From NCBI RefSeq assembly GCF_010500215.1, contig NZ_JAAGOY010000004.1, positions 1,240,001-1,304,000 on the forward strand: a stretch of DNA of 64,000 nt, given 5' to 3'. The notes beneath the pieces were generated by a model. It ran no database searches. It saw nothing but the letters and a program-made list of their open reading frames with translations, and was not told the origin of the DNA. Positions 25,128 to 29,511 of this stretch are shown here, one piece after another. The DNA is from Aliiroseovarius sp. PrR006 (lineage in GTDB: Bacteria; Pseudomonadota; Alphaproteobacteria; Rhodobacterales; Rhodobacteraceae). The translations under genes and the position numbers were made by a program. Position 1 is the stretch's first letter, and every line of letters begins with the position of its first letter.

Positions 25128-27401
25128 ATGTCCGAAGACAGCTATTTGCGCAAACGCGCATTGGATTATCACGAATTTCCACAGCCCGGAAAGCTTGAAA
25201 TCCGCGCGACAAAGCCGATGGCGAACGGGCGTGACCTAAGCCTTGCTTACTCTCCCGGAGTGGCTGAAGCCTGCGTTGAGATCTCAAAAGATCCTTCTGT
25301 TGCAAGCCGTTATACTGCGCGCGGCAATCTGGTCGCCGTGGTCTCGAACGGATCTGCGGTACTAGGGCTAGGTAATATCGGAGCACTGGCCTCGAAGCCT
25401 GTAATGGAAGGCAAGGCGGTACTCTTTAAGAAGTTCGCCAATATCGACTGCTTCGACATCGAACTGAACGAATCTGATCCCGAAAAGCTGGCCGAGATCG
25501 TCTGCGCGATGGAGCCGAGCTTTGGCGCGATCAACCTAGAAGACATCAAGGCACCCGATTGTTTCATCGTTGAACAAATTTGCCGCGAACGGATGAACAT
25601 CCCCGTTTTTCACGATGATCAGCACGGAACCGCTATCGTGGTCGGGGCCGCAGCCACCAATGCATTGAAAGTGGCGGGCAAGTCCTTCGAAGACATCAAG
25701 GTCGTCTCGACCGGCGGCGGGGCTGCCGGCATTGCCTGCCTGAATATGCTTCTGAAGCTGGGCGTGAAGCGCGAGAATGTCTGGCTCTGCGACATCGAAG
25801 GCCTGGTTTATGAGGGCCGCGAAAAAGACATGACGCCTCAGAAAGCGAATTACGCACAAGGCGACAGCCCGGCCAGTCTGGATGACGTGATTGAAGGCGC
25901 AGACCTGTTCCTTGGCTTGTCGGGCCCCGGCGTTTTGAAGCCCGAGATGGTGGCCAAGATGGCCGATCGTCCGATCGTGTTTGCCCTTGCCAACCCGACA
26001 CCGGAAATCATGCCTGACGAGGTGCGCAAGGTTGCTCCGAATGCGATCATCGCCACCGGGCGTTCGGATTTTCCAAATCAGGTAAACAACGTTCTGTGCT
26101 TCCCTTTCATCTTCCGGGGCGCTCTGGATGTCGGCGCAACCGAGATCAACGACGCCATGCAGCTGGGCTGCATCGAAGGCATCGCAGCATTGGCCCGCGC
26201 CACAACGTCTGCTGAGGCCGCCGCCGCCTATAAGGGCGAGCAGCTGACCTTTGGTGAAGACTACCTGATCCCCAAACCGTTCGATCCGCGCCTGATGGGC
26301 GTGGTCGCCAGCGCCGTTGCCAAGGCAGCGATGGACAGCGGTGTGGCCACGCGCCCCGTTGACGATCTGGACGCCTACAAGGCGAAACTGGACGGGTCGG
26401 TCTTCAAATCTGCGCTGATCATGCGCCCTGTCTTCGAAGCTGCCGGCACCGCCGAACGCCGCATTGTCTTTGCCGAGGGCGAAGACGAACGCGTATTGCG
26501 CGCCGCCAACGCGATGATCGAAGAAACCACGGACGCACCGATCCTGATTGGCCGCCCGGACGTGATCGCGCGCCGTGCCGAACGGGCTGGTCTGTCAATT
26601 ATTCCCGGTCGTGATTTCGAGGTCGTTAATCCCGAACGCGACGACCGCTACCGCGAGTACTGGGGCGCCTATCACGAGCTGATGGCCCGCAAGGGCGTGA
26701 CGCCTGATCTGGCCAAGGCTATCTTGCGCACAAACACCACAGCCATCGGTGGCATCATGGTGCATTTGGGCCATGCGGACAGTTTGATCGCTGGTACGTT
26801 CGGGCAGTATCTGTGGCACCTGAACTATATTCAACAGATTCTGGGCAACACCGAATTGCACCCGGTTGGCGCACTCAGCCTGATGATCCTACAGGATGGC
26901 CCTCTGTTCATCGCCGACACCCATGTGCACAACACGCCCAGTGCCGAGCAGATCGCCGAAACCGTTTGCGCCGCCGCGCGCCATGTGCGTCGTTTCGGTG
27001 TAGAACCAAAGATCGCAGTCTGCTCGTATTCGCAATTCGGCAACCACGGCGGAGACAGCGGTGCGCGTGCGCGTGGAGCACTTGAAATTCTGGACGCCAC
27101 CCCGCGTGACTTTGCCTACGAGGGCGAAATGCACGTGGACGCAGCCCTTGATCCCGAGGTGCGTCGCCGCCTGTTCCCCGCCGCGCGTTTTGACGGCCCC
27201 GCCAACGTTCTGGTTTTTGCCAACACGGATGCGGCCAGCGCCGTGCGCAATACGCTGAAGGTGAAAGGTGGCGGGCTTGAGGTCGGACCGATCCTGATGG
27301 GCATGGGCAACCGTGCGCATATCGTTACGCCCTCTATCACCGCACGCGGGCTTCTGAACATGTCGGCCATCGCCGGGACACCGGTCGCGCATTACGGCTA
27401 A
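25128..27401 (+). CDS. maeB: NADP-dependent malic enzyme with phosphotransacetylase-like tail
   Basis: 757-residue hybrid enzyme that decarboxylates malate to pyruvate and makes NADPH. Residues 1-160 are the malic N-terminal domain ([55 protein letters not shown]). Residues 160-430 are the NAD(P)-binding domain ([17 protein letters not shown]). From about 430 the phosphate acetyltransferase-like domain follows ([34 protein letters not shown]), which in such hybrids is regulatory rather than catalytic. The ribosome site is GGGAGG. A monocistronic unit is likely, because a long regulatory gap separates it from prpE. Confidence 0.94.
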
Positions 27402-27418
27402 ACGATTCCCTGCGAAAC

Positions 27419-27529
27419 TTTGCAAGGCAAGGTTTGCAATTTTGCAAATCTCGCCTTTTTCAAACTCAGCCCCCTCAAAACACAGGGGTTTGCAAAAATT
27501 TGCAGGTGATTTTCCGCCACCCTGCAAAT
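27419..27529 (+). promoter_or_regulatory. Array of TTTGCAAA half-sites upstream of prpE
   Basis: Six copies of the motif occur: TTTGCAAG (27419), TTTGCAAT (27433), TTTGCAAA (27441), TTTGCAAA (27489), TTTGCAGG (27499) and inverted CTGCAAAT (27522-27529). The last lies just upstream of a likely -10 GATAAT (27537-27542). From memory, TTTGCAAA pairs are the binding box of PccR, a short-chain acyl-CoA regulator of propionyl-CoA assimilation in Rhodobacter, and of the related RamB. Confidence 0.68.
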
Positions 27530-27627
27530 TTTCCGCGATAATGTGACGCTACGTCCAACACGGTTCTTGCCCGGATAGGTCGTAGGGGCGTAACACATTC
27601 TTCAAGGGAAATTGGAGGATGTGCACC

Positions 27628-29511
27628 ATGGCATACAAAGACGTTTACGCAGCGTGGCAGGCGAACCCGGAAGCATTCTGGATGGACGCGGCCCAAGCGA
27701 TCAGCTGGGACAAGGCCCCCACCAAGGCGCTCTTTGACGGCAACGCCCCGATCTACGAATGGTTCTCGGACGGGATGGTCAACACCTGCTACAACGCAGT
27801 GGACCGCCACGTAGAAAACGGACGCGCCGATCAGGTCGCCATCATCTATGACAGCCCCATCACAGGCCGTCAGTCGAAAACCACCTATGCCGAACTGAAA
27901 TCGCGGGTCGAGAAAGTCGCGGGCGCTCTGGTCGAAAAGGGCGTCACCAAGGGCGACCGCGTCATCATCTATATGCCGATGGTCACCGAAGCCCTGATCG
28001 CCATGTTGGCTGTCACCCGTATTGGTGCAGTGCACTCGGTCGTATTTGGCGGCTTTGCCTCGAACGAACTGGCCGTACGTATCGACGACGCCAAACCCAA
28101 GGCGATCATCGCCGCCTCTTGCGGGTTGGAGCCGGGCCGCGTCGTGGCTTACAAGCCGCTTCTGGATGGCGCCATTGACCTGTCCGAACACAAACCCGAC
28201 TTTACCCTGATCCTGCAGCGTGAAGAGCATCCCGCCGAGCTGATCGACGGACGCGACTATGACTGGGCCGAGATGGAAGCGAACGCTACCCCTGCTGCCT
28301 GTGTGCCTGTCGAAGGCAACCACCCAGCCTATATCCTCTACACCTCGGGTACCACGGGTCAGCCGAAGGGCGTTATCCGCCACACTGGCGGCCATCTGGT
28401 TGCACTGAACTGGACCATGAAGAACCTGTACAACGTCGATCCGGGCGATGTGTTCTGGGCCGCGTCTGACGTGGGTTGGGTCGTTGGTCACTCTTACATC
28501 ACCTATGGTCCGCTGGTGCACGGCAACACGACCATTGTATTTGAAGGCAAACCCGTTGGCACACCGGACGCAGGCACCTTCTGGCGCGTGATTTCCGAGC
28601 ACAACGTGAAGTCGTTCTTCACTGCCCCGACCGCCTTCCGCGCCGTGAAGCGCGAGGACCCGAAGGGTGAGTTCGTGAAGAAATACGACCTGTCCTGCCT
28701 GAAACAGGTCTATCTGGCTGGTGAGCGTGCCGACCCCGACACCATCGTCTGGGCGCAGGAGCAGCTGAACGTGCCCGTGGTGGACCACTGGTGGCAGACC
28801 GAAACCGGCTTCGCCATCGCCGCCAACCCAATTGGCATCGAAGAACTGCCGATCAAACTGGGTTCGCCCTCGGTCCCAATGCCGGGCTTCGATGTGCAGA
28901 TCCTCGACGAAGGCGGACACCCGATGCCAGCTGGCGAGCTGGGCGCGATCGCCATCAAACTTCCCCTGCCTCCGGGTACGTTGCCGACCCTGTGGAACGC
29001 GGAAGAGCGTTACAAGTCGAGCTATCTGAACACCTTCCCTGGCTACTATGAGACCGGTGATGCGGGGTACATTGATGAAGATGGATACGTCTACATCATG
29101 GCGCGCACCGATGACGTGATCAACGTGGCCGGTCACCGTCTGTCGACCGGCGGCATGGAAGAGGTTCTGGCCTCGCACCCCGACGTGGCCGAATGTGCCG
29201 TGATTGGTGTGACCGACCAACTGAAAGGCCAACTGCCGCTGGGCATGGTCTGTCTGAACGCGGGCACCGACCGCCCGGATGAAGAGATCACCGCCGAATG
29301 CGTCAAGCTGGTCCGCGAGAAGATCGGCCCGGTTGCCGCCTTCAAACTTTGCGTGGTGGTGGATCGCCTACCCAAAACGCGCTCGGGCAAGATCCTACGT
29401 GCGACCATGGTGTCGATCGCGGACGGCAAGGAATACAAGATGCCTGCAACCATCGACGATCCAGCCATTCTGGACGAAATCAAAGAGGCGCTGGCCTCGC
29501 TCGGCTACTAA
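27628..29511 (+). CDS. prpE: Propionyl-CoA synthetase
   Basis: 627-residue AMP-forming ligase activating propionate. The whole chain follows E. coli PrpE: NLCxNAxDRH-like opening (here TCYNAVDRHVENG), GAVHSVVFGGFASNELAVRIDDAKP, YTSGTTGQPKGVIRHTGGH, SDVGWVVGHSYITYGPL, WWQTETGFAIA, MARTDDVINVAGHRLSTG, and the catalytic Lys588 in TRSGKILRATM. The last third matches PrpE rather than Acs. I start at 27628, 9 nt after GGAGG; an ATG at 27619 touches that site directly. The propionyl-CoA-type regulatory motifs upstream support the assignment. A terminator follows. Confidence 0.9.
   Translation: MAYKDVYAAWQANPEAFWMDAAQAISWDKAPTKALFDGNAPIYEWFSDGMVNTCYNAVDRHVENGRADQVAIIYDSPITGRQSKTTYAELKSRVEKVAGALVEKGVTKGDRVIIYMPMVTEALIAMLAVTRIGAVHSVVFGGFASNELAVRIDDAKPKAIIAASCGLEPGRVVAYKPLLDGAIDLSEHKPDFTLILQREEHPAELIDGRDYDWAEMEANATPAACVPVEGNHPAYILYTSGTTGQPKGVIRHTGGHLVALNWTMKNLYNVDPGDVFWAASDVGWVVGHSYITYGPLVHGNTTIVFEGKPVGTPDAGTFWRVISEHNVKSFFTAPTAFRAVKREDPKGEFVKKYDLSCLKQVYLAGERADPDTIVWAQEQLNVPVVDHWWQTETGFAIAANPIGIEELPIKLGSPSVPMPGFDVQILDEGGHPMPAGELGAIAIKLPLPPGTLPTLWNAEERYKSSYLNTFPGYYETGDAGYIDEDGYVYIMARTDDVINVAGHRLSTGGMEEVLASHPDVAECAVIGVTDQLKGQLPLGMVCLNAGTDRPDEEITAECVKLVREKIGPVAAFKLCVVVDRLPKTRSGKILRATMVSIADGKEYKMPATIDDPAILDEIKEALASLGY

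Follow-up and report, generated by a model that had tools for sequence, protein, structure and literature searches.

A conserved multi-site array of TTTGCAAA-type boxes in front of prpE in Aliiroseovarius and related Rhodobacteraceae, a probable operator of PccR

The PccR operator upstream of pccB in Rhodobacter (Cereibacter) sphaeroides was reportedly described by Carter and Alber in 2015 as paired TTTGCAAA, arranged as one tight pair. The locus described here resembles this operator in its TTTGCAAA octamers, in the presence of a PccR orthologue and in the connection to propionyl-CoA assimilation. It differs from the R. sphaeroides site as reported in that the target is prpE and that several boxes are distributed over 110 bp.

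Two further operators of ScfR-family regulators are comparable. MtPrpR from M. tuberculosis is described as a ScfR-family tetramer responding to CoA esters, which is a probable likeness to PccR, and its operator at prpDC and icl1 as TTTGCAAA and TTTGCgAA 1 bp apart, where the gap between boxes B and B' of the prpE array is 2 bp. In contrast to the array, the MtPrpR operator is a 17-bp single composite site and serves genes of the methylcitrate cycle together with icl1 (PMC6765138). The class 2 operator of RamB in P. denitrificans, located at the glyoxylate operon, is alike in having a ScfR activator, two boxes and CoA-ester ligands, and both boxes are reported to be needed in a reporter; it differs by its 18-bp spacer and by belonging to another ScfR subclass and pathway (PMC10370305). 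In the literature searched, no published link between PccR and prpE was found; the one paper there that names both deals with Mycobacterium and mentions PccR in its references alone. The primary PccR paper may predict prpE as a target. The prpE array carries a known kind of regulation over to another target, and its multi-site layout is unusual. It would link the propionate-activating step to the regulator of propionyl-CoA carboxylase via a precise conserved site.

An array of short repeated sites is indeed present before prpE. In the window, which is the whole analysed stretch of 64,000 nucleotides, the gap between maeB and prpE contains six TTTGCA/TGCAAA cores within 110 bp (27419-27528), with TTTGCA starting at 27419, 27433, 27441, 27489 and 27499 and TGCAAA at 27523 (Table 1). 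This agrees with an earlier note on this DNA, which had counted six half-sites in 111 bp. The gaps of 6, 0 and 2 bp given in that note are correct as well, whereas the larger ones, 40 bp between both full octamers and 14 bp before the last box, were omitted there. The two exact octamers, boxes A and B, are the only ones in the window. Since 39 of 100 whole-window shuffles contain two or more octamers, their number is within chance and the unusual feature is the clustering. The 217-bp gap comprises 8 TTTGC/GCAAA in comparison to 1.77 in dinucleotide shuffles, and none of 5000 shuffles reaches 8. When one mismatch is allowed, there are 5 octamers versus 0.58 (reached by 1/5000 shuffles), and of exact octamers 2 versus 0.05 (5/5000). 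The genome as a whole (3.22 Mb on 15 contigs) contains 46 TTTGCAAA octamers versus 20 for the reversed-pattern control, a frequency above the background level that the note had regarded as an argument against its proposal.

Table 1. Features of the maeB-prpE region; positions are those of the window.
Feature	Position	Strand	Remark
maeB, NADP-malic enzyme with phosphotransacetylase-like C-terminus	25128..27401	+	upstream neighbour, also in relatives
maeB-prpE intergenic region	27402..27618		search region; ORF limits
Box A'' TTTGCAAG	27419..27426	+	outside the conserved core; variable in relatives
Hairpin of boxes A'/A with a T run behind it	27424..27457	+	possible maeB terminator in this species
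Box A' TTTGCAAT	27433..27440	+	abuts box A
Box A, exact TTTGCAAA	27441..27448		first conserved octamer
Box B, exact TTTGCAAA	27489..27496		second octamer of the conserved core, 48 bp past A
Box B' half-site TTTGCAGG	27499..27506	+	10 bp (about one helical turn) past B
Box C CCTGCAAA	27521..27528	-	consensus YTGCAAA; 32 bp past B
Likely prpE promoter	27567..27596	+	TTGCCC (27567-27572), 18 bp, TAACAC (27591-27596)
Ribosome binding site GGAGGA	27614..27619	+	sequence
prpE, propionate--CoA ligase type	27628..29511	+	start MAYKDVY set by comparison with relatives

The prpE product was identified as a propionate-activating enzyme in the earlier note, and it is indeed PrpE-like. Its best NCBIfam models are propionate--CoA ligases with 727 and 679 bits, yet it stays below the equivalog cut-offs of these models (955 and 827 bits, respectively). 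Models of acetate--CoA ligases score lower (632 and 626 bits). Among solved structures, 5gxd (listed as AMP-dependent synthetase and ligase) is the closest with 1135 bits; the next match is an acetyl-CoA synthetase with 443 bits. We rejected acetyl-CoA synthetase as the identity of prpE, as a distinct acsA gene (acetate--CoA ligase, above cut-off with 1008 bits) is located on another contig. In one study PrpE from Dinoroseobacter shibae served as acrylate-CoA ligase (PMC5651017), and PrpE from Ruegeria is described as converting acrylate from DMSP cleavage to acryloyl-CoA (PMC7157515). A switch at prpE may therefore affect the handling of DMSP by marine bacteria.

The family set used for comparison comprised 61 genomes, 58 of which contain prpE and 46 a PccR orthologue (at least 57% identity); 56 upstream regions were counted, with the partial matches G009 and G040 omitted. 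Before prpE, the 43 PccR-positive genomes contain on average 1.79 octamers with at most one mismatch versus 0.26 in shuffled sequences, the 13 PccR-negative genomes 0.62 versus 0.18. The strict pair TTTGCAAA-N40-42-TTTGCAAA is found in 22/43 PccR-positive genomes as compared to 0/13 PccR-negative ones (Fisher p 0.0007, kinship ignored). Like this comparison, the other genome counts are not free of phylogenetic dependence. The strict pair is missing in 21/43 PccR-positive genomes with prpE, and in 17/43 the 300 bp before prpE are devoid of octamers also when one mismatch is allowed. The draft genome G028 (86% complete), which is PccR-negative, has a near-array before prpE. In an alignment of 23 upstream regions, boxes A, B and C are all seen, and a half-site follows 10 bp past B. 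The relatives keep 48-50 bp between the octamers, the half-site 10 bp on and the third box 31-33 bp on, ranges which in the scan loci described below are bounded by the search pattern.

Another element was seen in the same upstream regions. A LacI-type palindrome, GTTASCGSTAAC, occurs with at most two mismatches in the 200 bp before prpE, close to the promoter, in 8/33 array-free and 4/23 array genomes and in about 1% of shuffles; the region of the window is not among the matches. It is possibly the site of a second carbon regulator, for which we take CceR to be a candidate. As a substitute for the array in array-free relatives, the LacI-type site is only suggestive.

The three-box pattern TTTGCAAA-N40-42-TTTGCAAA-N25-27-TGCAAA was searched in one genome each of 84,980 species and yielded at least 118 stretches, of which 80 loci with 81 matches were listed. 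Among the matches listed, 78/80 loci belong to Rhodobacteraceae/Paracoccaceae genera or to unplaced Alphaproteobacteria, and the remaining two to a cyanobacterial MAG and a Bacillus. The array is located 84-120 bp before prpE in 71/81 listed matches: in 70 of the 81 a PrpE with 60-90% identity follows at this distance (median 97), and at L136 a shorter PrpE hit is found 100 bp downstream. Seven of the 81 are situated 10-146 bp from the locus end, with maeB present and the prpE side beyond that end. L153 gave a second reading of one site on the other strand, and two unrelated matches of the 81 listed, L138 and L183, have no PrpE. These two and the second L153 reading were omitted from the locus counts, for which 78, 76 or 77 loci were used. 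Outside the search pattern, TTTGC at +10 from box B is present in 55/78 of the listed loci. Upstream of box A, 34/78 of them have a half-site at a distance of up to 12 bp, a number obtained without a control. The PrpE proteins most similar to that of the window are encoded at L154 (an Aliiroseovarius MAG) and L182 (an unplaced MAG), both with 90% identity among the loci listed.

From the 80 listed loci 40, mostly named isolates, were chosen for a PccR search, and 39 genomes were searched (L169 was left out). PccR is encoded in all 37 rhodobacterial array genomes searched, with 71-91% identity, and in neither of the two outliers, again among the matches listed. The most similar one among the genomes searched is that of Aliiroseovarius sp. 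S1339 (L136, 91%).

The genome of the window itself encodes a PccR orthologue; the absence of any PccR or RamB homologue would, according to the earlier note, have refuted its proposal. A profile search with PF09856 revealed two genes with a ScfR domain, and only the PccR orthologue is a strong match (237 bits, cut-off 24). It aligns to MtPrpR with 292 bits over residues 67-465 of 466. Four cysteines, of the kind that serve as cluster ligands, are aligned between both proteins. A Trp residue of PccR aligns with the position of Phe155 in MtPrpR, a numbering which we inferred from the construct MtPrpR81-486. PccR from R. sphaeroides is reported to have a Trp at that position as well (PMC6765138). 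The pccR gene is divergent from pccB, and pccA and mcm follow further along on the pccB strand; the names pccB, pccA and mcm were read from the sequences and not from a family search.

The same boxes are present at this locus. The pccB-pccR gap of this genome contains TTTGCAAA and GCAAATTGCAAA. Of the 46 genomes that encode an orthologue, 30 were sampled for their pccR locus and 29 of these loci analysed (G060 was left out). In all 29, the 300 bp upstream of pccR include an octamer that deviates at one position at most, and in 25 an exact one, while shuffles would give one in about 4/29. Two or more octamers within 130 bp upstream of pccR occur in 20/29. The boxes at pccR are mostly 20-22 or 30-32 bp apart and thereby differ in spacing from those at prpE (48-50, 10 and 31-33 bp).

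Close pairs, defined as TTTGCAAA-N4-34-TTTGCAAA, were searched in the genome of the window plus 30 relatives and detected in 14/31, of which nine belong to the 18 relatives from the same genus, in comparison to 1/31 for the reversed control; the window genome has no exact pair at this spacing. Of 16 close-pair loci examined, nine originate from the genus of the window (L235-L243) and seven from other families. Eight of the nine genus loci contain pccR or pccB, and for the ninth as well as for the seven loci from other families no link to pccR/pccB was seen. At L235-L242 a gene for an MFS transporter-like protein is situated between pccB and pccR, and TTTGCAAA octamers flank it on both sides, as exact pairs at L236, L238, L239 and L240. 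In the window genome pccB and pccR are adjacent, without an MFS-like gene between them.

The likely promoter of prpE is located downstream of all boxes. Among the matches listed, TTGC-N17-23-TA is found at 67/75 array loci, with spacers of 19 or 20 in 63, and TTGC-N18-21-TAWC occurs in 28/56 family upstream regions versus about 0.4 in base-shuffled ones. A promoter finder using a strict consensus called no promoter at the array. Most of the alphaproteobacterial promoters analysed in one study are reported to be without T at -7 (PMC8407463). Judged from the sequence, transcription probably starts near 27603, and relative to this position box C is centred at about -79, B' at about -101, B at about -111 and A at about -159. 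The conserved promoter places all boxes upstream, which favours activation from upstream. Between box C and the promoter lies TGACGCTACGTC (27544-27555), which with at most two mismatches was also observed in 9/23 array genomes versus 0/33 others.

Taken as a whole, the array is probably a multi-site PccR operator which activates prpE as propionyl-CoA rises. PccR, tetrameric if it is like its structural homologue MtPrpR, would occupy box A and the B-B' site and touch box C as well. With rising propionyl-CoA, or a related CoA ester, the bound PccR would recruit RNA polymerase to TTGCCC-N18-TAACAC and prpE would be switched on. A positive feedback is proposed because PrpE itself makes propionyl-CoA, and this feedback would raise the entry enzyme along with carboxylase and mutase. 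The ligand, the oligomeric state and the feedback are assumed in analogy to MtPrpR and RamB. The suggestion of the earlier note that prpE is preceded by a PccR-type operator is therefore well supported, as PccR is present, the octamer occurs at pccR, the layout is conserved and the array co-occurs with PccR in the 37 rhodobacterial genomes. In C. sphaeroides PccR is reported to control the propionyl-CoA carboxylase genes including pccB (PMC12632250), and deletion of pccR in R. capsulatus is reported to impair growth on propionate (PMC10370305). Both results fit the PccR reading, and they concern the carboxylase genes and growth rather than prpE. The PccR-positive genomes devoid of the strict pair or of any octamer, the near-array of G028 and the deviating box spacing at pccR speak against this reading.

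More tentatively, PccR tetramers could bridge A, B-B' and C at their fixed spacings to form one nucleoprotein switch with a steep prpE response to PrpE-made propionyl-CoA, an idea that we regard as possible and rather doubtful. If it were true, many Rhodobacteraceae would possess a self-reinforcing on-switch for propionate and, where PrpE activates acrylate, also for DMSP-derived acrylate, and the array would have been gained or lost among lineages which keep PccR.

The same boxes and the same PccR could also act with the opposite sign, in that ligand-free PccR represses prpE and CoA esters derepress it, or with both signs. RamB from P. denitrificans is reported to have both roles and to change its oligomeric state with CoA esters (PMC10370305), and for icl1 repression by MtRamB and activation by MtPrpR are reported (PMC6765138). 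Were GATAAT at 27537 the -10 element, box C would be near the -35 region. The earlier note had indeed seen a -10 box beside the last site; GATAAT is present there, but it is poorly conserved, since GRTAAT past box C occurs in only 12/78 of the listed scan loci and in 5/23 family genomes. All boxes precede the conserved promoter, and as box C ends 38 bp before its -35 element (27528 vs 27567), no box covers -35. A dual activation and repression had also been derived in the note from the small gaps between the copies, which is unsupported as the relatives keep the long spacings described above. Repression, alone or along with activation, is unlikely.

Activation by PccR also has to be weighed against another regulator which shares or mimics the octamer. 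The octamer is reported to be common to MtPrpR and MtRamB (PMC6765138), and since it is thus shared within the ScfR family, the motif alone cannot name the regulator. Candidates are PhaR, the second ScfR-domain protein and a LacI-type regulator. In many relatives without octamers, prpE and a similar promoter are retained, in some of them together with the LacI-type palindrome. The second ScfR-domain gene (L002:1483-2823) adjoins a response-regulator gene, and in P. denitrificans a ScfR relative is reported to be clustered with a two-component system (PMC10370305). However, the encoded protein is divergent and reaches 62 bits versus 237 for PccR, pccR carries the same boxes, and among the matches listed the array was accompanied by PccR in every rhodobacterial genome searched. 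We consider a regulator other than PccR very unlikely. PhaR was rejected, as its site in R. sphaeroides is CTGCNNNGCAG (cited in PMC12542648), which is absent from 27402-27627.

It is still less probable, to a degree that leaves little room for it, that the palindromes are a terminator of maeB or structural repeats. The A'/A hairpin of the window has -17.4 kcal/mol and is followed by a T run, and boxes B' and C make up a perfect inverted repeat of 12 nt. However, TTTT within 22 nt past box A is found in 10/77 homologous loci among those listed versus 7/78 for a control interval, while the octamers are kept, and octamers also occur at pccR, far from maeB. A terminator or structural RNA was rejected: the relatives do not keep the box A hairpin in terminator form, and the only two hits in Rfam remained far under the gathering scores (21.3 vs 100 and 19.5 vs 50 bits). 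Mere chance clustering of an AT-rich octamer has a negligible probability, for although two octamers per 64 kb window are within chance, the clustering beyond shuffles and the layout before prpE in 71/81 listed matches already refute it.

Apart from the array and pccR, seven other paired cores were found in the genome. Five of them fall within the longest reading frame of their surroundings, in the case of L020 at the extreme 5' end of the frame, and two in gaps; at none of the seven was a link to propionate seen among the neighbours, which were inspected without a family search. At L016:9185-9202, the AT-rich TTTGCAATATTTTTTGCA, followed by AA, lies in the gap between two minus-strand reading frames of 344 and 361 aa.
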